Below are positions 1 to 37,475 of a DNA stretch of 37,518 nucleotides, one piece after another. Numbering within the stretch: position 1 is the stretch's first letter; every line of letters starts with the position of its first letter. Below the pieces are notes generated by a model that saw nothing but the letters and a program-made list of their open reading frames with translations, made no database searches and had not been told where the DNA came from. A program made the position numbers and the translations under genes. Source of the DNA: a virus; the IMG/VR virus record IMGVR_UViG_3300046665_000375, positions 1 to 37,518 of that record; one strand, written 5' to 3'.

Positions 1-175
1 CGGCGCAGTCGCGCGGCTGGGCGCCGCTCAACTGCGCGAAGTCGGCGATGGCCGGCGTCGTTGGCGTCCTGGCCGGCTTGCGGCTGGCCGCGTCTGCCGG
101 TGATATCAGGATGGCGCACAGCGCGCATGCCGTCGCGAGCAGGCGGTGGCGGTGCGATGGTCGTGTCGGGGTCAT
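1..175 (-). CDS. Exported host protein, N-terminal fragment (runs off the window)
   Basis: Reading leftward from an ATG at 175, 58 codons are open to the window edge. The first residues are basic (TRPSHRHR), followed by a hydrophobic stretch (LLATACALCAILIS) and a likely signal-peptidase site after PADA. This is a typical Sec signal peptide, so the protein is probably periplasmic or secreted. A GAGGG about ten bases upstream of the ATG can serve as ribosome binding site. The visible mature part is too short to assign a family. It lies outside the prophage and is presumably a host chromosomal gene. Function unknown. Confidence 0.6.
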   Translation of the reverse strand, partial: MTPTRPSHRHRLLATACALCAILISPADAASRKPARTPTTPAIADFAQLSGAQPRDCA

Positions 176-549
176 GAAGATCGGCCCTCATTGAAAGACC
201 TCGGTGCGGGCCGGCGGGAAGCTTGGATCCGTCCGGCGCGCGGAGGTGGTGGTCGCAGCGCGGCGCGGATGGCCGGCGTCTGGACCCGTTGAAAGACTGG
301 ATGCTTCGGATGCATCCGCGATGCGGCGGGGCCGCACGGCGGCCAGGTCAACGTGATGCCTGCCGCTCGTTTTTTAGGTGTGTACCGGGATCAAGTATAG
401 GGCAAATAATTCATTTGCTCAAATATGATTGACGTAAGTACATTTCCGACGTGCATTTTAGTCCAAGCGGAAATAGGGTGGCGTACGGTTGGTCGGTGTA
501 GCCGCATTCGGTATAGTTGGGCTGATACTGACCGAAAAGGCATCGCAAC
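176..549. other. Host intergenic region with a short inverted repeat
   Basis: No convincing gene is seen in these 374 bases. They separate the leftward exported-protein gene from the rightward ASCH gene. A short inverted repeat, GCAAAT-AATTC-ATTTGC, lies at 402-418 in a locally AT-rich patch and could be a regulator site. A TTGACG at 429-434 could be a -35 element for the ASCH gene, but no good -10 follows at normal spacing. AAAAGG at 535-540 is the ASCH gene's ribosome binding site. Confidence 0.35.
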
Positions 550-1140
550 ATGAGTGAGCGCGGCATTTTATTCAGTGCGCCGATGGTGCGCGCGCTGCTG
601 GCCGGCACGAAAACCCACACACGACGCGTGGTCAAAGTGCAGGAGGGCAGCGTCCAAGCGAACTCGCAAAGTCCCTATGGTCGGCCCGGCGACCGGCTGT
701 GGGTGCGCGAGACCTTCTTCGCGTATGGCCGCTGGGACGCGCGCTATAACGAAAAGAAGCAACGCGACGAGTGGCGCTTCGCCGACATGACCCGGGAATG
801 CGGCCTTTCATATCGGTATGCGGCCGACGGTCCAGGCGTGCCGGTGGAAAAGGGGCGCTCCGCGACGCCGGGCTGGCACACTCGTCCGGCACTGTTCATG
901 CCGCGCGCGGCGAGCCGTATCCTGCTGGAAGTCGCATCGGTGCGGGTCGAGCGCCTGCAGGCCATCAGTGACCACGATGCAATCGCTGAGGGCATCGAGC
1001 GTGGCGCCGGCAATACTACCGAATGGTTCAGCAGCCCGGTCGGCAGCTACCGCTCGCTGTGGGAGCAGATCAACGGTACTGGCAGCTGGAACGCCAACCC
1101 GTGGATATGGGTTGTCGAGTTCAGGAGGATGGAAGCGTGA
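550..1140 (+). CDS. ASCH-domain phage-type protein outside attL
   Basis: 196 residues. The N-terminal pattern (ILFSAPMVRALLAGTKTHTRRV) followed by PGDRLWVRETF, and a C-terminal SLWEQING with NPWIWVVEF, is characteristic of the phage ASCH family sometimes labelled morphogenetic protein. ASCH domains have a PUA-like fold and are thought to bind RNA. The start is set by AAAAGG ten bases upstream, and the gene ends just before an intrinsic terminator. The family is found mostly in phages, yet this copy lies outside the attL core of the present prophage and has no phage neighbours on its left. It is either a remnant of an earlier element at the same tRNA or a domesticated cargo gene. No truncation is seen. 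Confidence 0.75.
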   Translation: MSERGILFSAPMVRALLAGTKTHTRRVVKVQEGSVQANSQSPYGRPGDRLWVRETFFAYGRWDARYNEKKQRDEWRFADMTRECGLSYRYAADGPGVPVEKGRSATPGWHTRPALFMPRAASRILLEVASVRVERLQAISDHDAIAEGIERGAGNTTEWFSSPVGSYRSLWEQINGTGSWNANPWIWVVEFRRMEA

Positions 1141-1157
1141 TCGAACATCAAAACGAC

Positions 1158-1196
1158 AAAGGGTTGCAGCGACTACGCTTGCAACCCTTTGTTTTT
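1158..1196 (+). terminator. Intrinsic terminator after the ASCH gene
   Basis: Stem AAAGGGTTGCA (1158-1168) pairs with TGCAACCCTTT (1180-1190), with a further GC pair inside the loop, followed by GTTTTT. It ends the rightward ASCH transcript 18 bases after its stop codon. The A-rich 5' side may let it also work on the opposite strand against transcription leaving the prophage. Confidence 0.85.
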
Positions 1197-1201
1197 ACAG
1201 C

Positions 1202-1400: not shown

Positions 1401-2603
1401 TCACTCCGTGGCCTTCGCGCGGCGCTCCGTTCTCCGGTCGTAATGCCGGTGCGTGGTCGCCGGGTTCGCGTGCGCAGCAAAGTCATAAGCGTCCTCGCTC
1501 CGGTTCCGCAGCTTCGTTGTGATCGCGGCCGGGCGGACGTCGGACAGGGCAAAGTATTCCGGGTGCTCGGTGATCTTGTACCCCTCGTATGGCTCGATTG
1601 CGGTCTTGGACTTCCGGGCCGCCCGGTACCGGACCTCCCATTCCCGCTTCGCCGCAAGCGCGGCCGCTACATCGCGATCGAACGAGGCGATCCAGTCGAA
1701 CATCGCATCCGCCCACAACGACCCCCATCCGCTCTTGGTGTAGGGTGTCCCCTTCGCGTTTGCGAACAGGAACAGCCGGCTCGCCGTGTGCGCCTGCTTC
1801 GCCCTGGCCACCACGGTGCGCAGCCGCGGCGACCACTCGCGCAGCTTCGTCACCTCGTCCTCGCCCATCTTCCGCTTGGCGCTGACCACGCGCACGCCTT
1901 CCTTCGCCAGGCCGGCAACGTGGAAGGGCCGCACTTCCGCCGCCCGGAATCCCGTCAGGTAGGTGAACATCCCGGCGCACCCCATGACCTGGTAGCCGGA
2001 CGTCTGCCGGCGGGACCAGAGGTAGAAGCGCACGACCTGGCCGCGGTAGATCGTCCGCACCTTCTTCTCGGTCCTGTTCTGCATCATGTCCGTGAACGGG
2101 TTTGCCTCCATCAGCCCCCAGCGCACGGCGTAGTGGCAGATCGTCGACATCAGCGACAGCTCCTTGTTCGCCTTCGCAGGCGCGCCGGCTTTCGCACGCG
2201 CATCCAGGAACTGGTACCCGTGCAGCGTCTTGAGTGCCATAGGCCGCATGGCGCCGAAGAACTTCGTCAGGTTGGCGTAGGTGCCGGCCCGCACCGCCAG
2301 GCCGTCCTTCGACTGGTCCCGGTAGTGGGTCGGCGCCACCTCGTCGCGGAAGCGCTCGATCATCTCGGCCACGGATCCGGCCACGACCACGCCCTGCTGG
2401 ATGTCGAGCGCCTTGCGCTTCGCGCTGCGCTCCGCATCGGTGATCGCCTTTCGGTCGCCGAGCGGGGCGCTGGCCAAGGTTTCGCTGGTATTGTCCGGAT
2501 GCTGGTAATACCAGGAGACCTTGCGCTTCCCGACCCTTTTATACAGGCGGTCGATCCCGGTGCGCTCCTTACTGGAATGCGCTGAGGTTTGGTGTTTCGG
2601 CAT
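1401..2603 (-). CDS. int: Tyrosine recombinase, prophage integrase
   Basis: About 400 residues if it starts at the ATG at 2603 (MPKHQ). An in-frame ATG at 2648 would add 15 residues; neither start has a strong ribosome binding site, and both overlap the DUF4224 gene, so translational coupling is likely. Catalytic residues of the tyrosine recombinase family are visible: Arg in TGFRAAE (about 220), Lys in SAKRK (about 243), Arg in SDVRPAA (about 357), His in AAHANP (about 378) and the nucleophile Tyr in HRHYDRR (about 388). The usual His of the HxxR box is Ser here, as far as I can align it. Its position next to attL makes it the enzyme for tRNA-His integration. It is the last gene of the leftward early operon. 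Confidence 0.93.
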   Translation of the reverse strand: MPKHQTSAHSSKERTGIDRLYKRVGKRKVSWYYQHPDNTSETLASAPLGDRKAITDAERSAKRKALDIQQGVVVAGSVAEMIERFRDEVAPTHYRDQSKDGLAVRAGTYANLTKFFGAMRPMALKTLHGYQFLDARAKAGAPAKANKELSLMSTICHYAVRWGLMEANPFTDMMQNRTEKKVRTIYRGQVVRFYLWSRRQTSGYQVMGCAGMFTYLTGFRAAEVRPFHVAGLAKEGVRVVSAKRKMGEDEVTKLREWSPRLRTVVARAKQAHTASRLFLFANAKGTPYTKSGWGSLWADAMFDWIASFDRDVAAALAAKREWEVRYRAARKSKTAIEPYEGYKITEHPEYFALSDVRPAAITTKLRNRSEDAYDFAAHANPATTHRHYDRRTERRAKATE

Positions 2604-2805
2604 ATCGCGATCGCGTCGTCTCTTCGGAAATTCCCATTTTCTTGTCATGATAAGCCCGCGCCACCCGCGGCAGTCCGCTGGCGCCGACCTCGAACCGCCA
2701 CCGGTGCGAGGTCAGCCAGTTGACCATCTTGCTGCGCTGGTTCGGCTTGCAGTCGACCAGCTCTGCCAGTTCGTTGGCGCTCAGGTATGCGTTCGCTGCA
2801 TTCAT
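2569..2805 (-). CDS. DUF4224-type small protein, probable integrase partner
   Basis: 78 residues. The start at 2805 is fixed by a near-perfect AAGGAGG seven bases before ATG. The N-terminal half (AYLSANELAELVDCKPN, then KMVNWLTSHRW) resembles the DUF4224 family, whose members commonly sit directly upstream of tyrosine integrases in proteobacterial prophages. The helical, helix-turn-helix-like N terminus and the location suggest an excisionase or directionality role, but this is inference. Its 3' end overlaps the start of the integrase gene. Confidence 0.8.
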   Translation of the reverse strand: MNAANAYLSANELAELVDCKPNQRSKMVNWLTSHRWRFEVGASGLPRVARAYHDKKMGISEETTRSRYAETPNLSAFQ

Positions 2806-3061: not shown

Positions 3062-3252
3062 CTTGTGCTTTCCATATCTTTAGGTTTTCTCATCAGGATC
3101 CGGCTCTGATCGAGCTTTTCTTCGGCGCGCCGACGAAGCGCCTGCTGCAGCTCCAGGTCGAGCCGCATCACCGCTACCTGCTCGAACAGGGCGCGGGCCA
3201 TCTGCTCGTCGCTGCCGTAGAGGGCGCGCGCCTGTTCGAACGTCGTGCTCAT
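3058..3252 (-). CDS. Small helical protein downstream of the ThiF-like gene
   Basis: 64 residues, almost entirely predicted helix (FEQARALYGSDEQMARALFE, then a Leu- and Arg-rich stretch), likely a coiled coil. Its ATG overlaps the stop codon of the ThiF-like gene, and its own stop overlaps the ATG of the next gene. It is therefore tightly coupled to both. No family recognised. It could be an accessory of the PRTRC cassette or an ordinary phage gene; position alone cannot decide. Confidence 0.6.
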   Translation of the reverse strand: MSTTFEQARALYGSDEQMARALFEQVAVMRLDLELQQALRRRAEEKLDQSRILMRKPKDMESTR

Positions 3253-4034
3253 GCGGCCGCCAGGGTGGCAGCCGCCGGCGCCGCAGCCGCATCGCGAACA
3301 TTCAGGGGCCGCATGCTGCCGGTGCGCAGGTTCACGAAGGCTCCGTGCCAGGTCAGCTTCCCGTGGCGGAAAAACTCCCACAGGATTGACAGCGCCGGCG
3401 TCACGATCGACTGGTTCACGAACAGCTCCTGGCGCTCGAGTGCTTCGGCCAGGCCGCAGCTTGGCGTGTCGTCTTCCTTCGCCTGCAGATCGACCAGCTC
3501 GGGCAGCACGTCGTAGGGGCTCGGCAGCAGCACGCTGTCCGCCGGCGCCTGCAGGCCGGCGCGCCCTGCGAATAACTCGCCCAGCAGCACTTGGCCGTCG
3601 GCCGCGCGGTTCCCGAGGTCCATCAGGTAGTGCACGCCCTGGCGCTTCAGCCGGTGGTGGATGTCGTGGCGGGCCCGCGCGCTGTCGACGCAGGCGATCG
3701 CCATGTGGAACTGGCGCTCCCAGCTGTTGTTCTCGTCGTAGCGGCTGTGCACGGCCTCCCAGGCCAGGCCGAAGAAGGCATTGATGCGGTTGACCAGCAC
3801 GTGCGCCTTGCTGGCGCCGACGTCGAAGGCGCCGAACAGCTGCCGGCCCATGTTCGCCTCGCTGACGGTATCCGGGTCGTAGACTTTCACGTGCAGGCCC
3901 GGGTGGCCGAGCGCCGTGATGGCGTGGTTCAGCCGGGCCAGGCCGGTCAGCATCTGGGAGCCGTTGCCGCCGCAGCCGATCAGGGCAATGCGCACCTGGT
4001 GGCTCAGCATGGTGGGGGGCGTGATATGCGGCAT
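3249..4034 (-). CDS. PRTRC system ThiF family protein (E1-like adenylating enzyme)
   Basis: 261 residues with a full ThiF/E1 adenylation domain. The nucleotide-binding loop GCGGNG is at 20-25. The acidic pair and E1 signature VYDPDTVSEANMGRQ spans 51-65 (Asp53, Asp55, Asn61, Arg64). Lys76 lies in GASKAHVLVNRIN and Asp117 in ACVDSARARHD. In E1 enzymes these bind ATP and activate the C terminus of a ubiquitin-like protein. Cys193, in TPSCGLAEALERQELFVN, is a good candidate for the thioester cysteine. The sequence matches my memory of the PRTRC ThiF family. It starts four bases after the stop of PRTRC protein A. Presumed partners are proteins C (Ubl) and B (E2-like). The Ala-rich C-terminal tail is probably disordered. 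Confidence 0.9.
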   Translation of the reverse strand: MPHITPPTMLSHQVRIALIGCGGNGSQMLTGLARLNHAITALGHPGLHVKVYDPDTVSEANMGRQLFGAFDVGASKAHVLVNRINAFFGLAWEAVHSRYDENNSWERQFHMAIACVDSARARHDIHHRLKRQGVHYLMDLGNRAADGQVLLGELFAGRAGLQAPADSVLLPSPYDVLPELVDLQAKEDDTPSCGLAEALERQELFVNQSIVTPALSILWEFFRHGKLTWHGAFVNLRTGSMRPLNVRDAAAAPAAATLAAA

Positions 4035-4038
4035 GCGG

Positions 4039-4812
4039 TCACCCGAAGATCTTCTCGGCCGGCACGTTGATCGCGATGTACAGCCCGAGCACGCACAGGC
4101 GGAACGCGACCGTCGGCTTGTCCTTGTCCAGGTCGCCGAACACGGCCGAGATCTTCACGGCGCCGCAGTCGTCCTCGTCGTCGGTCGTGCTGAAGAACGC
4201 GCCGAGGTGCCCGTGGCTGTGCAGGTCGATCGCGATGCTTTCATCGGGTCCGTGCTCCACCTGGCGGTACTGGATGCGGCTGGCGCTGGCCTCTCCGATG
4301 ATGTCCGGATATTCGATCCGCCACGTCTTCTTCCGGTGGTCCCACAGCAGGCTGGCCGCGGCCTCGATCGGGGCGTCCGTCTTCGCTTTTACCGCGAACT
4401 CCTTCATCTGCGCGAGCGCGCTGCCGATCGAGCCGAAATCCAGCTCGCACTTACCCTGGATGGCGCCGTACGGCATCGCGACGGATTCCTGCTTGGCCAG
4501 CTGGTGGATGTAGTGCAGCCATGGCCGGCGCACCTCGAGGAACAGGCCGCCCTGGGCCAGCAGGAAGCGGTGGCCCGCCTCCTGCAGCGGATGGAAGGGC
4601 GCGTGGCGCGGCACGGCGGCGACCGGCGCCGCGGCCAGCAGGGCCATGTCCATCTGCAGCAGCTCGGCCGGCGCCGTTTCCTCGTCGACGGCCAGCGGCA
4701 GCGGACGGGCCTCGCGCAGCACCGCCTCAGCCGTTTCCAGGAAGGTGGCGAAGGAGCCGCGGGTGATGTCGAGCAGCTCGTCGAATTTGCCGGTGAATTC
4801 TTGCTTGTTCAT
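4039..4812 (-). CDS. PRTRC system protein A (JAMM/JAB metalloprotease)
   Basis: 257 residues; ATG at 4812 preceded by GAGGA at five bases. An intact JAMM zinc motif is visible: His198, His200, then seven residues, Ser208, two residues, Asp211 (DLHSHGHLGAFFSTTDDED). Glu150 in APIEAAASLLW is a possible upstream catalytic Glu. JAMM enzymes cleave isopeptide or peptide bonds after ubiquitin-like domains, so the likely role is processing or removal of PRTRC protein C. The first 120 residues are a family-specific N-terminal region. The gene sits between protein B and the ThiF-like gene in one leftward operon. Assignment rests on the motif and the gene order of the cassette. Confidence 0.9.
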   Translation of the reverse strand: MNKQEFTGKFDELLDITRGSFATFLETAEAVLREARPLPLAVDEETAPAELLQMDMALLAAAPVAAVPRHAPFHPLQEAGHRFLLAQGGLFLEVRRPWLHYIHQLAKQESVAMPYGAIQGKCELDFGSIGSALAQMKEFAVKAKTDAPIEAAASLLWDHRKKTWRIEYPDIIGEASASRIQYRQVEHGPDESIAIDLHSHGHLGAFFSTTDDEDDCGAVKISAVFGDLDKDKPTVAFRLCVLGLYIAINVPAEKIFG

Positions 4813-4827
4813 GTGGTCCTCTTCTAT

Positions 4828-5568
4828 TTAAATGGTGGAGCGGGCGGCGATGCGGACGATCGCCTCCTGCAGGTTTTCTTTCGAATAGACGAGCGCGCGC
4901 TGCATCGCGGCCGGGTCGGGGTTGGCCAACTGGTCACGCCACAGCTGCTGGATCCCGCCCTTGTACTTCACCGCCTTGTCGCGGTTCGGGTGCGTGAAAT
5001 GGCTACGGAAGAAAGCGCTCTCGTAGCTGTGGATAACCTCGGCGCCGAAGGTAGGCGGCAGTTCCACGTTCCCAGTGCAGATCCGGCCGCCGTCCCACAC
5101 GTTGAAGTGCGGAGCGTGGCGCAGGCGCGTGGCAGGTGCCGGGCGAGCATCCTCTGACAGCGCAAACACGAACCAGTCGTTCGGCGTGGCGACAAACACC
5201 AGCGCTGGGTGCGCGGCCTGGCCGTGGCCGTCGACCTTGCCGGAGCCAGCCGCCTTGAACCACGTTGTGCGCAGCTGTGCTGGCGTCCACCATGCGATCA
5301 GGTTCGGCGAGCTGTACAGCAGGTTCGCCGGCAGGAATCCCGAAAATGCTGTGGCCGCGCCGACCGCGCCGGCGAACTTTGCCAGCGCGCCCTTCGACAG
5401 TGGCACGCCTGCGCCGATCACCTTGCGGCCGTCGTGCTGGGAATCGGGCACTACCGGGTGCGAGGTGGCGTACACGTCGCCTCGGGCCGACTCGTACATC
5501 AGCACGGCACCGACAAGGTTCAGCGTCGTTTCGCCGCCGCCGACGATTTCTACAGGATGAAGGCTCAA
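4828..5568 (-). CDS. PRTRC system protein B (E2-like)
   Basis: 246 residues from a TTG start at 5568 that overlaps the stop codon of protein F (TTGA) and is preceded by GGGAG at seven bases. No ATG fits better. Residues about 150-170 read RLRHAPHFNVWDGGRICTGN. A His-x-Asn (His154, Asn156) followed eight residues later by Cys164 closely resembles the HPN...C active-site segment of ubiquitin-conjugating enzymes. PRTRC protein B has been linked to the prokaryotic E2-like families. The inferred role is to accept the activated protein C from the ThiF-like E1. The C-terminal 60 residues are helical and basic. Whether Cys164 is truly catalytic cannot be settled from sequence alone. Confidence 0.85.
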   Translation of the reverse strand: MSLHPVEIVGGGETTLNLVGAVLMYESARGDVYATSHPVVPDSQHDGRKVIGAGVPLSKGALAKFAGAVGAATAFSGFLPANLLYSSPNLIAWWTPAQLRTTWFKAAGSGKVDGHGQAAHPALVFVATPNDWFVFALSEDARPAPATRLRHAPHFNVWDGGRICTGNVELPPTFGAEVIHSYESAFFRSHFTHPNRDKAVKYKGGIQQLWRDQLANPDPAAMQRALVYSKENLQEAIVRIAARSTI

Positions 5569-6620
5569 TATTTTTCTCCCAGCAGCAGGATCAGCTTTTC
5601 GACCAGCACCGCGACCTGAAGCATCTGCTCCGTCAAAGTCATGAACTCGCGCACGCCGGCCGCTGTCATCGGCACCGGGTTCGCGTCGATGAAGTCGGTG
5701 TATTCGCCGCACTGACCGAGGTCATTCAGGTAGTCGTCGATGGTTTCGCCGATGACATCGAACGGCTTCCAGAGCAACACCATGCAGCCCTCGATTGGAT
5801 ACTGGCTGGTGCGGTACACCCCTTTGTCGGCGGGATGCAAGACGAAGCCAGGGCGATTGACCAGCGCATGGATCTGGTCGCACAGTTCGATTACCTGACG
5901 CGCGAGCCGGTCGTTGCCGGCAGCCGCCGCGATCTTTTCCCGGGACAGCGTCCGCTTCGGCGCACATACCCATTCGGGGACTTCGGCGAAGAACACGGCG
6001 CGCGTGACCACGTGTTCGTTCTCCAGCAGCTCCTGAACCGTTTTGTAGCCGCCTTCCTCGCGCCGCATCTCGAGCAGTTCGACGTCGTCGCGCGATTCCC
6101 TCCAATAAGCCTGGTCTGCCCAGTCGAGCGCGGTCCATGGGTTGAACGACTCCGGCAGCAGCAGCACGGCGTCGCGCAGCACCGCCAGGACGGTCTGGCC
6201 GAAGCCCTCCAGCAGCAGTTCCAGACGCTCGATCCCGCGCCCCAATGCGAAGCGCGGCATGTCGTCGCCCATCCGGCTGAAGCAGAACCATGCCGTCGTC
6301 AGCGCGTCGTAGTTCGTATCTTCGATCTGCTGCACCTGCAGGCTCCAGCGGAAAAACTTGCACGGCGTTTTGCGGATCAGCTTCGTCCACCAGTGCGACA
6401 GCGCGCGCTCCGACAACAGCTTCTCCTGCTCGCCGAACACGTCCACCAACAGCGCATTACGGGGCGTGCGCAGCATCGGCGCGGTGATGACGTCCGCTTC
6501 GAGGAGCGCGATCGTCAGCGGCACCGTGAGCGCATCGACGCCCGGGATCACGTAGCGCGTCGGGATCTCGGCCGCCAGCTGCGGCAGGGCCAGTGCGGCG
6601 GCGGGCAGCATGGCGGTCAC
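5565..6620 (-). CDS. PRTRC system protein F
   Basis: 351 residues from a GTG at 6620 overlapping the stop of protein C (GTGA); an in-frame ATG at 6611 is an alternative. It has no motif I can tie to an enzyme. The sequence is rich in Trp and aromatic residues (HWWTKLIRKTPCKFFRWSLQ; NPWTALDWADQAYW) and ends in a long amphipathic helix (MLQVAVLVEKLILLLGEKY). The identification as PRTRC-F rests on overall resemblance and on its place between proteins C and B. It may be a target, scaffold or substrate-selection subunit of the conjugation cassette; this is inference. Confidence 0.82.
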   Translation of the reverse strand: MTAMLPAAALALPQLAAEIPTRYVIPGVDALTVPLTIALLEADVITAPMLRTPRNALLVDVFGEQEKLLSERALSHWWTKLIRKTPCKFFRWSLQVQQIEDTNYDALTTAWFCFSRMGDDMPRFALGRGIERLELLLEGFGQTVLAVLRDAVLLLPESFNPWTALDWADQAYWRESRDDVELLEMRREEGGYKTVQELLENEHVVTRAVFFAEVPEWVCAPKRTLSREKIAAAAGNDRLARQVIELCDQIHALVNRPGFVLHPADKGVYRTSQYPIEGCMVLLWKPFDVIGETIDDYLNDLGQCGEYTDFIDANPVPMTAAGVREFMTLTEQMLQVAVLVEKLILLLGEKY

Positions 6621-7018
6621 GGCAGCACCAGGTGGTTCGAGGACGGCGCCAGGCAGCGCACACCACCGGCGCGGCCGGCTTGGTCGAGGACACGCTTCAC
6701 CTGCTGGGCCAGCGGCTGGCGCGCCTGCTCGGCGGTCAGCACGTTCTGCGGCCGCGCAGCGGCATCGAGGCGGCCGCCGTCGCGCAGGCGCTGCAGCGCG
6801 ACTTCGCGCGCGCTGGCGCCCTTCGTGCCGACGGCGCGGCGGAACGTGTAGATAACCTTGCCGCCCATCTGCTCGGGGCCCTCGATGTCAGCGCTCGTGA
6901 TCTCCGGGTAGACGTTGGCGTAGAAGTCGCGCACCTGCGGCAGGCTGAGCATCTGGCCGGGATCCGGCAGGGCCACGCCGTTGTAGCGGAATTCGCGCGT
7001 GAGGTTCTGGATATCCAT
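6617..7018 (-). CDS. PRTRC system protein C (ubiquitin-like), with C-terminal extension
   Basis: 133 residues, ATG at 7018 after GGAGG at five bases. Residues 1-67 (REFRYNGVALPDPG, then VRDFYANVYPEITSADIEGP, then VIYTFRRAVGTKG) match the short PRTRC-C / prokaryotic ubiquitin-like family, which I remember as about 65-75 residues ending near GTKG. Here a further 66 residues follow, containing a helix (LAQQVKRVLDQAG) and a Gly-Gly at 118-119. If the Ubl must expose a terminal glycine, the JAMM protein A could remove this tail. It is encoded between proteins E and F with overlapping or near-contiguous signals. Confidence 0.85.
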   Translation of the reverse strand: MDIQNLTREFRYNGVALPDPGQMLSLPQVRDFYANVYPEITSADIEGPEQMGGKVIYTFRRAVGTKGASAREVALQRLRDGGRLDAAARPQNVLTAEQARQPLAQQVKRVLDQAGRAGGVRCLAPSSNHLVLP

Positions 7019-7030
7019 GTCGACCTCCGC

Positions 7031-7723
7031 TTAGAACAGGTCGAGCGTGAACTTGTCCACAGGCTCGTCGGCTGCAGGCGCCTCGGGCGCGGCCTCCTTG
7101 ACGACGTCGGTGGGTTCCATTGCGGGCGCCGGCCCGGCCTGCGGCCCAGGTTCGGCACCCGCGCCGTCGCTGACCGGCTGTTGAGCGCTCTGGTCCAGCG
7201 CCGCGTCTGCGCTGGCGCTCGCTTCATCGCCGCCGGCAGGCAGCTGCTCGCTCGTGGCCGTGCTGGCGCTGGCGGGCATCACCTCGTCGGCGGCCGCCGC
7301 GGCTTCGCCAGCCGCCGCTGCCGCGCCCGGCACGGCATCGACCTTCCTCTCTTCGTCGCCGCCTTTCCCGCCGCGCCCCTTGCGCGCCGGCTTGTCGTTC
7401 TTGCCGTCGACCTTGGCTTCCGCCTTCGGCGCGGGCAGGCCCAGTGCGGGTGCTGCAGCGGCGGGCGCGGCTACGCCGGCGGCGTCCTGAGCCTGCTGGA
7501 GCAGGGAGCGCTTCGGCGCCTGCCAGGTCGCGAGCGCAGCGATGAAGTCCGCGTCGAACTCGCCCGGCGTGGCGCGCAGGGACAGCGGCTGCGGCAGCTT
7601 GGCCTTCGTCTTCGTGTCGGCCGGCACAGGCGTGACGTTGACGCGCAGCTCGTCGTCGCCCTCGGCGGCTATGGTGATCATCAGCGTCGCCTGTTTGGCG
7701 AGCGCGTGCAGGGAGGTGAACAT
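7031..7723 (-). CDS. PRTRC system protein E
   Basis: 230 residues; ATG at 7723 preceded by GAGGA at eight bases. The first 85 residues form the conserved part (SLHALAKQATLMITIAAE, then LRVNVTPVP, then PLSLRATPGEFDADF). The rest is a long low-complexity Ala/Glu/Pro/Lys region, probably disordered, closing with a hydrophobic end (VDKFTLDLF). It is the first PRTRC gene transcribed in this operon. No enzymatic motif is seen. Identification is by similarity to the remembered PRTRC-E N terminus and by context. Confidence 0.85.
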   Translation of the reverse strand: MFTSLHALAKQATLMITIAAEGDDELRVNVTPVPADTKTKAKLPQPLSLRATPGEFDADFIAALATWQAPKRSLLQQAQDAAGVAAPAAAAPALGLPAPKAEAKVDGKNDKPARKGRGGKGGDEERKVDAVPGAAAAAGEAAAAADEVMPASASTATSEQLPAGGDEASASADAALDQSAQQPVSDGAGAEPGPQAGPAPAMEPTDVVKEAAPEAPAADEPVDKFTLDLF

Positions 7724-7751
7724 TGACGGTTCCTCGTGGGTTGGTGGGTGG

Positions 7752-7940
7752 TTAATCGTTGTCGTTGGCCTGGAGCTTCTTCACGTCGACCTGGGCGCGG
7801 CGCCGCATGTGCCGGCGGGCCAGCGTGTGCAGGATCACCTTGCAGGCGGGATCCGCGAGCAGGGCGTCGAGCGGCACGTGCACGTCGAGCATGCGAAGCG
7901 CGACTTCCAGCGCGGCGCGGTCGGGTTCGACGCGGGGCAT
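7752..7940 (-). CDS. Small protein upstream of the PRTRC genes
   Basis: 62 residues (MPRVEPDRAALEVALRMLDV start), helical, with a basic C-terminal half (HMRRRAQVDVKKLQ). It begins one base after the stop of the preceding small gene and ends 28 bases before PRTRC protein E. No family recognised. It is part of the leftward early operon and may be a nucleic-acid-binding or accessory protein. Confidence 0.55.
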   Translation of the reverse strand: MPRVEPDRAALEVALRMLDVHVPLDALLADPACKVILHTLARRHMRRRAQVDVKKLQANDND

Positions 7941-7941
7941 G

Positions 7942-8142
7942 TCAGGCCCCGTCGGCCGGCGGGCGCACGCCGAGCATCTTGCGCAGCGCGGCGGCGGCGT
8001 CGCGGTGGTCGAGGCCTTCCATGGCGCCGCACAGCATCTGGGCGAACGCGGTGGCCCGACGCTCGACGTCGCCGGGACTCTGGGCGGTCGCATCTTGGGT
8101 CGCCAGGACGATCACGCGTGCGATCTGGTTGGAGGTGGCCAT
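7942..8142 (-). CDS. Small helical protein of the early left operon
   Basis: 66 residues (MATSNQIARVIVLATQDATA start; DHRDAAAALRKMLGV later). The N terminus MATSxxIxR resembles that of the next gene upstream (MATSTKIGRAIKF), so the two may be diverged duplicates. GGAGA lies about eleven bases before the ATG. No known family. Expressed from the CI-controlled left promoter. Confidence 0.55.
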   Translation of the reverse strand: MATSNQIARVIVLATQDATAQSPGDVERRATAFAQMLCGAMEGLDHRDAAAALRKMLGVRPPADGA

Positions 8143-9547: not shown

Positions 9548-10006
9548 TTAAAGCCTTCCGGCTACTACGCGAGTTGGCTGTATTACGACTCGCCCAACAA
9601 TCCCAAGTTGTCCGCTTTTCACGTTAATTGGTTTAAACGTCGAGTTGACGTAATTCAGATACCAATGGCCGCCGCTCTTCACGAGTTGTTGCACACATGC
9701 TTCGCCGTTCCAGTTCACGGCATAGACCTCACCGTTGCGCAGAGCCGTGTCTGCGGTATTAATCACGAGCCAGTCGTCCTCGAAAAACATTGGCTCCATG
9801 CCTTGATCCCTGACGCGAAGCGCGAGTAATCCGGCAGCATCGGAATTGAGTGCACGCAGCGCCGCCGTTGGCACCAGTAACGGCTCGGTCGTCGAGAGGT
9901 CGGACTCAACCTCGAAACCGGACACCCCTGCGCGTAGCCGAAGCGTCACACGACGGACCTCCGTCATCCCGGGCCAGAAAGAAAGGTCGCTTTGGAATTT
10001 GGTCAT
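9548..10006 (-). CDS. Catalytically dead S24-like protein without a DNA-binding domain
   Basis: 152 residues. Residues about 60-110 align with the LexA/CI S24 fold (LLALRVRDQGMEPMFFEDDWLVINT, then GEVYAVNWNGEACVQQLV). The nucleophile Ser of the DSMEP box is Gly69, and the position of the general-base Lys is Gln106, so self-cleavage is not expected. There is no N-terminal helix-turn-helix. Its ATG overlaps the stop of the CI gene (ATGA). Possible roles are a dimerisation partner or modulator of CI, or a decoy for RecA filaments. It could also be a degenerate duplicate, but the frame is intact and well spaced. Confidence 0.75.
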   Translation of the reverse strand: MTKFQSDLSFWPGMTEVRRVTLRLRAGVSGFEVESDLSTTEPLLVPTAALRALNSDAAGLLALRVRDQGMEPMFFEDDWLVINTADTALRNGEVYAVNWNGEACVQQLVKSGGHWYLNYVNSTFKPINVKSGQLGIVGRVVIQPTRVVAGRL

Positions 10007-32484: not shown

Positions 32485-32511
32485 GCCCACCCTGACCAGG
32501 TGGGCTTTTTT
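32485..32511 (+). terminator. Terminator after the ejection genes, first of two
   Basis: GCCCACC (32485-32491) pairs with GGTGGGC (32499-32505), followed by six T. Confidence 0.85.
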
Positions 32512-32518
32512 ATTTCGA

Positions 32519-32540
32519 CCCCGCTTGTGCGGGGTTTTTT
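32519..32540 (+). terminator. Terminator after the ejection genes, second of two
   Basis: CCCCGC (32519-32524) pairs with GCGGGG (32529-32534) across a TTGT loop, followed by six T. The tailspike start codon lies only 14 bases after the T run, so the tailspike must be made by read-through or antitermination. Confidence 0.85.
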
Positions 32541-32553
32541 GTTAGGACGATCC

Positions 32554-34743
32554 ATGGCAGCCAGTCAGCCAGCAAATTTCAACCTGCAAGAGTTCACCGA
32601 CGCCGGCCAGCTGCTCGTGGGCGGCCGCCTCTACACCTACGCGTACGGGACGACCGCCCAGAAGATCGCCTATACCGATCCGGCCGGCACGGTGCCGCAC
32701 ACGTACACGTCCGACGGGGCGGGCGGCCAATACATCGCGCTGAACGCACGCGGCGAGCTGCCGGCACCGCTGTACCTGGTATCTGGCTCCTACGATATCG
32801 CCCTCAAGCGTGCCGACGGCTCGACGGTTTGGACTCGAAAGGCGGACGGCGTCGAGAACTCCGTGCTTTCGTGGATTGAACAGTTTGCCACCGCGCTCGG
32901 GGCCACGCTGATGGGCTTCATCCAGGCGGGTTTCGGCGCCGTAAAGCGCACCGTCCAGGATAAGCTGCGCGACCGTGTGAGCGCTCAGGACTTCGGCGCG
33001 AAGGGCGACGGAACAGACGACACGGCCGCGATCAAGGCCGCGGCCGCCGCGTTCGTCACGGTCTCGATCCTCCAGAAGAAATTCCTCTACAAGGCGACCG
33101 TGACGGATGACCCGGCGATCTTCAACGTCGAGCACGGCGCGGACTTTGTTGGGATGGGCAACGGCACTACCAGCATCAGTGTGCGCGACGTGGCGGGCAA
33201 TTTCGTTGGATTCCAGCACAACTACAACGAGGAAGCCCAGGTAGCCACGCCGATCACGACCGGCCGTCTTCTGTCTCCGCCGCTGTCGAATAAGGCGCCG
33301 GTCACTTCGGCCGACCTCCTGGCGCATTGGTACAACGACGGCGGCCTGGAATGCGTGCGTGCCGCCGGCGGCGCTATCGGCTCGACGCAGTGGTATTTGT
33401 GGTCGTGGAATTACACGACGAATACTCTCTACGGCGCCTACGACCCGAAACGCCATCCGATTCTGGGCTGGTACCGCGGCGACGATGCGACGGTGCTGGA
33501 CTGGCAGTGCTACTGGTTGCGCGAATACGGCATCAAGGCCGTGATCCTGGTCGCCGAGGACGGCTTCGACACTGGATCGTGGAGCAACCCGCTCGACACG
33601 AACCGCGGCTACTGGATGTACCAGCTGTTCAACAACACGCCGAACTTCAAAGGACTGGGGTACATCTTCAACGGTCCGTTCCAGGGCATCACGGCGGCGC
33701 AGGCAACGGATCGCTGGAACAAGATCACCGACCTGTACCTGGCGCATCCACACTTCTACGTCGCGAACATCGACGGCGGCCTGTACCCATGCATCTACAT
33801 CTTCGACGCTGGCACGATGCGCACGGCGGTGTTCGGCGGCGACGACGCTTTCGAAACGTGGCTGAAGTCCATCGCCACGAAGTTCAAGAATGCCGGCTAC
33901 GCGGGCGTGTGCGTCATGGCGCGCAACGGCACGTATTACACGAACACAGCCGACGCGACCGTGGCGGACCGGTACGCCCGCGCTTTCTACGGTACCGGCG
34001 TGGTGATTTACGAATCGACGTACGCGTGGTCCGGCGCGCCGTTCGGCAACCCGACTACTTACGACGGCTTCGTGAATGCGTTCGACGCGACTTACGCAGC
34101 GAACAAGAACCGCGTGATCCCGAACGTGATGACCTCGCGCGAGAGCAAGTATCACCCGACCGCCTGGACGACCACTGGCAGCACGCCGCAGAAATTCGGC
34201 CAGGTGCTGCGCAAGGCTGTTCAGGCGGTGCGGAACAACACGACGGTGCCGAACATGGTCACGATTTACAACGTCGCGGAGTGGGGTGAAGGTGGGGCCA
34301 GCCTGCAGCCCAATATGGCGGACGGCTACGGCTACCTGGAGCAGTGCCGCACCGTGGACTTTATGTCCATGCAGCGCGGTACCGACCTTTTCACGTACAA
34401 AAAGCAGGTGAACGCCGGGACCAGCATCGCGAACAACAACATCAAACCGATCGGGGACGTTGTCTACATCTACTCGTCGATCGGCATCACGCTCGCGAGC
34501 TTGTACACGGCCTACGCCAGCGGCACCATCGCGCCCGGCTACCCGAACCAGAAAATCAAATTGGTGAACTCGGCCGACGCCGGCAACAACGTCATCAACC
34601 TGTGCGACGTGAGCAATTTCGCGGGCAGTGGCCTGCACCTGAACGCGGCGCAGGTTTCCTTGAACGCATGGAACAGCATCGAGCTGACCTATATCTCCGG
34701 GCGCGGCTGGCAGCAGACCAGCAGCGTCATTGCACCGCTGTAA
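32554..34743 (+). CDS. Tailspike with GH99/WbsX-like glycosidase domain
   Basis: 729 residues. Residues 1-100 are a phage fibre head-binding region (GQLLVGGRLYTYAYGTTAQK). Residues about 145-165 (DRVSAQDFGAKGDGTDDTAA) are the usual entry into a pectate-lyase-type beta helix, but no long helix follows. Instead, from about 250, segments such as HPILGWYRGDDATVLDWQCY, then YGIKAVILV, and later YNVAEWGEGGASLQP with DGYGYLE, resemble GH99/WbsX-like TIM-barrel hydrolases. A beta-rich C-terminal region closes the protein. Likely role: bind and cut host capsule or O-antigen. The Glu in AEWGEG is a plausible catalytic residue. It is the main host-range gene. Confidence 0.82.
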   Translation: MAASQPANFNLQEFTDAGQLLVGGRLYTYAYGTTAQKIAYTDPAGTVPHTYTSDGAGGQYIALNARGELPAPLYLVSGSYDIALKRADGSTVWTRKADGVENSVLSWIEQFATALGATLMGFIQAGFGAVKRTVQDKLRDRVSAQDFGAKGDGTDDTAAIKAAAAAFVTVSILQKKFLYKATVTDDPAIFNVEHGADFVGMGNGTTSISVRDVAGNFVGFQHNYNEEAQVATPITTGRLLSPPLSNKAPVTSADLLAHWYNDGGLECVRAAGGAIGSTQWYLWSWNYTTNTLYGAYDPKRHPILGWYRGDDATVLDWQCYWLREYGIKAVILVAEDGFDTGSWSNPLDTNRGYWMYQLFNNTPNFKGLGYIFNGPFQGITAAQATDRWNKITDLYLAHPHFYVANIDGGLYPCIYIFDAGTMRTAVFGGDDAFETWLKSIATKFKNAGYAGVCVMARNGTYYTNTADATVADRYARAFYGTGVVIYESTYAWSGAPFGNPTTYDGFVNAFDATYAANKNRVIPNVMTSRESKYHPTAWTTTGSTPQKFGQVLRKAVQAVRNNTTVPNMVTIYNVAEWGEGGASLQPNMADGYGYLEQCRTVDFMSMQRGTDLFTYKKQVNAGTSIANNNIKPIGDVVYIYSSIGITLASLYTAYASGTIAPGYPNQKIKLVNSADAGNNVINLCDVSNFAGSGLHLNAAQVSLNAWNSIELTYISGRGWQQTSSVIAPL

Positions 34744-37391: not shown

Positions 37392-37446
37392 GAATTCTTG
37401 GGGTGGCTGATGGGACTCGAACCCACGACAACAGGAATCACAATCC
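37392..37446. repeat. attR: 55-bp direct repeat within the intact tRNA-His
   Basis: Identical to 1202-1256. It covers the 3' half of tRNA-His, from the anticodon stem to the CCA and seven bases beyond. The phage copy restores the tRNA after insertion. Confidence 0.95.
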
Positions 37447-37475
37447 TGGACTCTACCAACTGAGCTACAGCCACC
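37399..37475 (-). tRNA. tRNA-His (anticodon GTG)
   Basis: 77 bases on the minus strand, starting with the extra 5' G of tRNA-His (GGTGGCTGTAGCTCAG) and ending in an encoded CCA. The anticodon GTG is at 37441-37439, and the T arm contains GGTTCGAGTCC. It is nearly identical to tRNA-His of other proteobacteria, complete and presumably functional. Its 3' half is supplied by the prophage attachment site. Upstream (37491-37518) a short inverted repeat GTCTCG/CGAGAC lies in host sequence. Confidence 0.97.

Follow-up and report, generated by a model that had tools for sequence, protein, structure and literature searches.

The virus record IMGVR_UViG_3300046665_000375 of IMG/VR (37,518 bp, analysed over its whole length and called the window here) holds a prophage of ~36,190 bp (36.2 kb) between 55-bp tRNA-His att repeats. 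Between the repressor and the integrase of this prophage, on the minus strand, lies a cassette of six co-oriented genes (3249-7723) that encode PRTRC proteins E, C, F, B, A and ThiF. By the sequence features tested the cassette is a member of the type 6d ubiquitin-like (Ubl) operons, PRTRC-related and without ParB. As a whole it is read here, tentatively, as a branch of the plasmid PRTRC cassettes (type 6d) that has adapted to phages and lacks ParB, is carried as lysogenic cargo and may act against competitors. The parts of the cassette are as follows (bits and cut-offs are those of the NCBIfam models):

3249-4034, minus strand: ThiF, an E1-like adenylating enzyme (TIGR03736, 316.9 bits, cut-off 144.75; PF00899), with catalytic Cys193 at 3456-3458.
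4039-4812, minus strand: PRTRC A, DUF2016 plus a JAMM/JAB protease (TIGR03735, 201.3 bits, cut-off 101.8; PF09436 and PF14464), with E150, H198, H200, S208 and D211.
4828-5568, minus strand: PRTRC B, E2-like (TIGR03737, 192.7 bits, cut-off 131.45; PF14460), with Cys164 at 5077-5079 and His193 at 4990-4992; a probable TTG start overlaps the stop of F.
5565-6620, minus strand: PRTRC F, alpha-helical (TIGR03742, 84.0 bits, cut-off 58.4).
6617-6817, minus strand: the fused 'VLP' domain of protein C, 66 aa, ending ...LAPSSNHLVLP; 41 other phages encode it as a separate gene.
6818-7018, minus strand: the ubiquitin-like domain of PRTRC C (residues 1-67; TIGR03738, 94.8 bits, cut-off 45.95; PF14454), ending in the invariant GTKG (6818-6829).
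7031-7723, minus strand: PRTRC E (TIGR03741, 72.0 bits, cut-off 37.95; PF19556), with an N-terminal domain, a disordered A/P/E-rich linker and the tip FTLDLF (7034-7051).

Family membership was assigned by comparing the score against each PRTRC model with its curated cut-off, and since all six proteins pass, six consecutive and co-oriented PRTRC genes stand as an earlier note on this DNA, made from the letters alone, had listed them. The Pfam families ThiF, DUF2016 with Prok-JAB, Prok-E2_D, Prok_Ub and PRTRC_E are also recognized; protein F reaches only alpha-hel2, below the cut-off, and a search of the PDB with F found no relative. None of A, B, C, E and F has a family in PHROGs, so a phage annotation based on it would miss these proteins. 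Because dN/dS between the window and eight relatives is below 1 throughout (0.11-0.32 for ThiF, 0.11-0.51 for the Ubl, and highest, 0.35-0.71, for the VLP tail), every part of the cassette is under purifying selection.

Conservation of the active sites was counted over 67 phage cassettes. The GxGGxG loop, R64, K76, D117 and C193 of the E1, the JAMM residues E150, H198, H200, S208 and D211, and the conserved Arg and Trp of the N-terminal domain of A are kept in all of them. In the E2-like protein B, C164 and His193, a histidine that lies after the cysteine, are likewise kept in 67/67; at the 'HPN'-like site N156 is kept in 66/67, and position 154 is H in 32 and Y in 35. The residues named in the earlier note for the E1, the E2-like cysteine and the JAMM protease therefore hold, as does N156, but its His154 gives way to the invariant His193. 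This pattern is that of the type 6d E2-like protein, which was described as having no classical His and an absolutely conserved His C-terminal to the Cys (PMC1779556). Against the PDB, the window ThiF finds the NEDD8 and SUMO E1 chains (best E about 4e-5). The model of C has a bb-a-bb arrangement at moderate confidence, and its best PDB matches include Ubl/ubiquitin domains at non-significant E-values; the predicted beta-grasp fold of C is weakly supported.

Since ThiF belongs to the MoeB/ThiF superfamily, the genes might instead form a sulphur-carrier pathway of the ThiS/MoaD type, or be a decayed passenger, with no conjugation to proteins. Such a reading is very improbable, because an E2-like protein and a JAMM protease with invariant active sites are present, no biosynthetic genes lie alongside, and dN/dS values well below 1 argue against decay. 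Ubl conjugation chemistry is predicted with high confidence.

The part of the cassette that the earlier note missed is the second domain of protein C. In the window this protein has 133 aa, a 67-aa Ubl that ends in GTKG and a further domain of 66 aa. Across phages the number of residues after GTKG ranges from 0-100 aa, while GTKG itself is invariant. The 66-aa tail of the window is homologous to a separate gene of 60-66 aa, located between C and F in other phages, and a profile detects this VLP protein (60-70 aa) in 73 phage loci, in every case with VLP-stop as its end. In the non-redundant phage set it is fused to the Ubl after GTKG in 21 (the window included) and separate in 41; locus L019 was left out of the fused count because its contig begins inside C. 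On both the ThiF and the B tree the fused/separate state changes 5 times, and well-supported branches force at least 4 changes on the former and at least 3 on the latter. Some phages whose VLP gene is separate have other domains as C tails. VLP is an unnamed seventh component of the cassette, new here.

In plasmid PRTRC cassettes an ORF of 59-74 aa with a Pro/hydrophobic end (DLPMVF, MPPLG, LLPPLF) is seen between C and F (L087:7376-7591, L115:7368-7586, L117, L147, L156, L110, L086, L113, L148 and L152), in several cases hidden under an over-long F annotation. Homology of the phage VLP protein to these small ORFs is not supported (hhalign 2.9%), and they are kept as positional analogues only.

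A C tail is present in 73 of the 81 cassettes that have a JAMM gene and in none of the 9 that do not (Fisher 3.4e-8; 0.005 among plasmid-type cassettes only), values that ignore relatedness, the 9 JAMM-less cassettes being about five lineages by our own count. In these 9, C stops at the glycine-type motif itself. Because Ubl tails occur only where JAMM is present, a role for the JAMM protein as maturase is supported, and the simplest reading, which we consider quite likely, is that protein A matures the Ubl and frees VLP. Processing of Ubl proteins by JAB proteases was predicted in general in 2006 by Iyer et al. (PMC1779556).

In the proposed pathway, protein C would be made as a Ubl-GTKG-VLP precursor, and the JAMM protein A would cut after GTKG to give free Ubl and free VLP protein. 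ThiF would adenylate the C-terminal glycine of the Ubl and then carry it on Cys193, from where it would move to Cys164 of the E2-like B, with His193 of B standing in for the classical E2 histidine. With help from F and from E, whose disordered arm would end in a docking tip, B would conjugate the Ubl to targets, and protein A would take it off again. As the operon lies downstream of cI and in the same orientation, it would probably be expressed in the lysogen, where it would act most likely on incoming competitors and not on the phage's own virion.

The cassette is not alone: a single scan with the window ThiF gave 66 IMG/VR loci, and to these are added 20 genome loci and one isolated phage, Burkholderia phage BgVeeders33. 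The genome loci are mostly from Burkholderiales (Massilia, Duganella, Janthinobacterium, Cupriavidus, Paraburkholderia, Trinickia, Caballeronia and Burkholderia); those outside the order are Rudaea and a ParB-bearing Novosphingobium (L107). BgVeeders33, whose genes are mostly annotated as hypothetical, is the sole full relative among 50,697 phage records, and in it the cassette is packaged in an isolated phage. Among plasmids, 392 records hold a ThiF relative, all at <60% identity. In the ThiF tree (a quick tree, with deeper branches that are long and weak) the 67 phage rows form one clade with an SH-aLRT of 100, apart from the plasmid rows.

A ParB-related protein is, by family definition, the P of PRTRC. 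The full sequences of 48 virus records and of BgVeeders33 were searched with its model, TIGR03734 (plasmid control, 764 bits), which had no match in the phage-clade records tested; it matched only in L077 (over the cut-off) and L074 (weakly), both outside the 67-row phage clade. A tblastn search of the window with a PRTRC ParB likewise gave no match. ParB lies upstream in all 12 plasmid cassettes of a first set; in a second plasmid set no PRTRC ParB is adjacent in L148 (which has dnaN in its place), L153 or L154, and L155 is cut at E. ParB is thus usual yet not universal beside plasmid cassettes, and it is absent from the phage clade as sampled. The label 'PRTRC type' given by the earlier note holds for the six proteins, but the cassette is not a full PRTRC cassette; the window cassette is filed as PRTRC-related and ParB-less because ParB is missing while the six other PRTRC proteins are present. 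(A ParB-bearing PRTRC cassette in Novosphingobium sp. ST904, L077/L107, lies on a contig that is classed as viral and has integrase- and repressor-like genes; its ThiF groups with the plasmid rows.)

The position of the cassette within the prophage is defined by these features:

1202-1256, no strand: attL, a 55-bp copy of the tRNA-His 3' end and an exact direct repeat of 37392-37446.
1401-2648, minus strand: tyrosine integrase (phrog_1, E 4.6e-15), which adjoins attL; its relatives share the att site.
3246-7746, minus strand: the cassette as a discrete insert of ~4.5 kb, from the E start to the ThiF stop, absent from the related phage L119.
10003-10707, minus strand: cI-type repressor (HTH plus S24; PF00717, 2.2e-13, and PF01381); the cassette runs the same way, and the position is kept in relatives.
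37392-37446, no strand: attR, inside a complete tRNA-His (37399-37474, minus strand).

The remaining genes, O and DnaB replication proteins, TerL (the large terminase), a P22-type portal, scaffold, capsid, head closure, DNA ejection, tailspike and endolysin, bear out the apparently intact podovirus prophage of the earlier note. The structural operon runs opposite to the cassette. Most loci follow the arrangement cI-type repressor, small genes, E-C-F-B-A-ThiF and integrase, the repressor pointing the same way as the cassette; in nearly all loci the cassette is flanked by a cI-type repressor and the integrase. The boundaries of the insert come from L119, which has an integrase 93% identical to that of the window and the same att site but no cassette; its DNA matches window positions 3113-3245 and 7747-7959, with nothing between.

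The virions of the carriers differ. A tail sheath is found in 8/29 and an HK97 capsid in 11/29 (some have both), a P22-type portal is strong in the window and in G008, and the capsid family of the window is present in few cassette carriers. The cassette recurs as the cargo of many unrelated temperate phages. This bears on whether tagging is aimed at the phage's own virion or lytic proteins, or sets the timing of its lytic switch, as could be thought for a phage-borne cassette, the more so as tail assembly in lambda-type phages involves a Ubl, TAPI, and a JAB, TAPK (PMC1779556). That one cassette type occurs in phages with unrelated capsids and tails, keeps company with int and cI, runs opposite to the structural operon, and is dispensable (absent from L119) renders this quite improbable. 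A role at the lysogenic stage and outside the virion is probable, and one directed at the host or at competitors is favoured over virion modification. The proposal of the earlier note, that the phage modifies host or virion proteins by covalent conjugation, is therefore upheld as far as a complete conjugation gene set goes and is weakened in its virion part by the unrelated virions and the repressor-integrase slot; overall its observation was correct and understated, and its interpretation is partly supported.

The defence role is, together with the target, the least certain part. Some relatives have different lysogenic or defence-like cargo in this slot (near the integrase are a caspase-like peptidase, DUF4062, and a reverse transcriptase/diversity-generating retroelement with an FGE-type protein), which counts for superinfection exclusion or anti-phage defence; an anti-competitor role of this kind is put forward as a tentative choice. 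Alternatively, the cassette could be stress or fitness cargo that benefits the host, a case of lysogenic conversion in which host proteins are conjugated for ends unrelated to phage competition. The position downstream of cI would suit this, and for a comparable Ubl system of bacteria, the Bub operons, a stress pathway or an immune pathway is considered possible (PMC13373217); nothing specific points to any host pathway, and the alternative is judged unlikely.

Individual occupants of the slot were also recorded. A caspase-like (Peptidase C14) protein, possible defence cargo, lies between cassette and integrase at L035:11806-13254 (minus strand). An FGE-type protein and a reverse transcriptase, in the layout of a diversity-generating retroelement, fill the ThiF-integrase slot at L089:10790-14022, and a similar FGE/reverse transcriptase layout, its members read by eye, is seen at L019:4341-8264. 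A 725-aa ParB-type protein (ParB_N plus HTH_ParB; L126:5792-7969) fills the slot in a phage that has a related integrase but no cassette.

Several results weigh against the anti-competitor cargo proposal or its steps. Because ordinary phage genes occupy the slot in cassette-less relatives, the slot is not a pure defence hotspot, and the attempt to read it as one through PADLOC yielded weak matches only, with no models for B, A, C, E or F and weak E1/E1-E2 matches to ThiF alone. A promoter specific to the cassette was not found, and the case for lysogenic expression therefore depends on position. For the maturation step, there are 8 JAMM-bearing cassettes without a C tail, besides the neglect of relatedness in the Fisher values. 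The AlphaFold model of B (pLDDT 87.6; a helix, strands, the cysteine loop and C-terminal helices) has no significant Foldseek match in the PDB, and in the BFVD it matches solely unnamed or uncharacterised proteins; of the folds proposed in the earlier note, then, the E1 has relatives in the PDB, the UBC/E2 fold of B is not recovered and the beta-grasp is the weakly supported one. Finally, no conjugate, cleavage or anti-phage phenotype is known, and in the literature searched there was no report of Ubl conjugates of PRTRC systems and no experimental function for PRTRC/6d operons. (Text matches to 'PRTRC' in a Rhizobium tropici paper were to a plasmid name, pRtrC..., and not to the PRTRC system.)

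A serious rival, given the likeness of the E tip to a replication motif and the presence of dnaN near plasmid cassettes, is a role at the replisome. In protein E a small domain is followed by a disordered linker rich in Ala, Pro and Glu, and the C-terminal tip is conserved (TLDLF, TLNLF, GVDLL, GVDIF); 57/66 phage E proteins end in [LIVM][DNES][LIMV][FL], as do 3.2% of other long ORFs. The tip is FTLDLF in the window and DLASLL/F, DDLQLF or VTAELF in plasmids. These ends resemble the beta-clamp binding motif QL(S/D)LF. The tip might thus dock the machinery on a sliding clamp (of host, plasmid or phage) and the Ubl modify replisome proteins, thereby controlling how the mobile element or its competitors replicate or are maintained, loosely like PCNA ubiquitination. 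In addition to the conserved tip, dnaN lies within 10 kb of 7/22 sampled plasmid cassettes (L112, L114, L116, L148, L149, L150 and L151), plasmid cassettes usually bear ParB, and in four phages a DnaN-like protein directly follows ThiF (hhalign 94%, E 1.4e-7). On the other hand, the E tip lacks the Gln that is key to the clamp motif, dnaN on large plasmids may be common backbone, the tip could bind another partner (as SSB tips do, for example), and the window has no DnaN-like protein. The DnaN-like protein was rejected as a PRTRC-specific partner, since its family has 76 viral loci, of which just 4 lie beside a cassette. Docking on the clamp is accordingly held to be unlikely, if slightly less so than the host-cargo alternative. 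The fuller version, with a modifier made as a cleavable VLP fusion, E docked on the replication clamp, and a prophage that tags replisome proteins of invading or host replicons, is more doubtful still; in it, the Ubl-VLP fusion would be comparable to the eukaryotic ubiquitin-ribosomal protein precursors. The phage DnaN-like family itself (loci include L035:10780-11472, L081, L034 and L019:3694-4344) has a DnaN-domain-like motif, D-x-RYYLN ... NGH, is recognized by neither Pfam nor NCBIfam, and is tied to plasmid dnaN by profile.

Elsewhere in the prophage, a second S24 protein (LexA/UmuD-type, 152 aa, 9548-10006, minus strand) directly adjoins the S24 cI repressor, and the tailspike candidate (32500-34743, plus strand) has a WbsX-type glycan-related domain (PF14307) in its C-terminal part. 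Because a gene of the phage family phrog_874 (550-1140, plus strand; E 3e-64) and DNA common to phage loci L088 and L125 lie outside attL, in window positions 1-1201, a second prophage or remnant may abut the prophage at the same tRNA-His.

For 20 years PRTRC/6d operons have stood as predicted bacterial ubiquitin systems. Their function becomes testable with this compact phage-borne form without ParB, which occurs in an isolated phage (BgVeeders33) and has a natural empty-site relative; the fused and free states of VLP offer a direct assay for the protease and point to an unnamed component. If the cassette is active, phages themselves would deploy ubiquitin-like tagging, beyond the bacteria that use tagging against phages.

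Among the closest known systems is the type 6d operon predicted in 2006 by Iyer, Burroughs and Aravind, who proposed addiction or protection against invasive replicons (PMC1779556). Shared with it are a single-domain Ubl with a C-terminal Gly, an alpha-helical protein, an E1-like protein, a JAB with an N-terminal Arg/Trp domain, and an E2-like protein with the invariant downstream His and no classical His, all of which the window has. The 2006 type had a standalone Ubl and was bacterial, whereas the window has a Ubl with a second protein fused to it and its operon is temperate-phage cargo, a form not found described in that paper. With the plasmid PRTRC cassette (NCBIfam TIGR03734-03742) the window shares the E-C-F-B-A-ThiF order and scores above all six cut-offs; it differs in its separate phage clade and in having no ParB (TIGR03734), adjacent or elsewhere in the phage records tested. 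E1/E2/JAB modules are used against phages in CBASS Cap2/Cap3 (PMC10097602) and Bil (PMC11354881, PMC13373217). Bil (BilABCD) has the same set of Ubl, E1, E2 and JAMM (PMC11354881), but BilA has two Ubl domains and the Bil E2 a CEHH motif, whereas the window has a single Ubl domain and no PADLOC match for B, A or C. CBASS Cap2/Cap3 has E1-E2 and JAB chemistry on a single C-terminal Gly (PMC10097602) and conjugates the cGAS-like enzyme itself; the window is without a CD-NTase or effector. The lambda-type TAPI/TAPK pair lacks E1 and E2 and is sited in the tail operon, but it shares with the window a phage Ubl with a C-terminal domain after the glycine, where a JAB is predicted to cut (PMC1779556).

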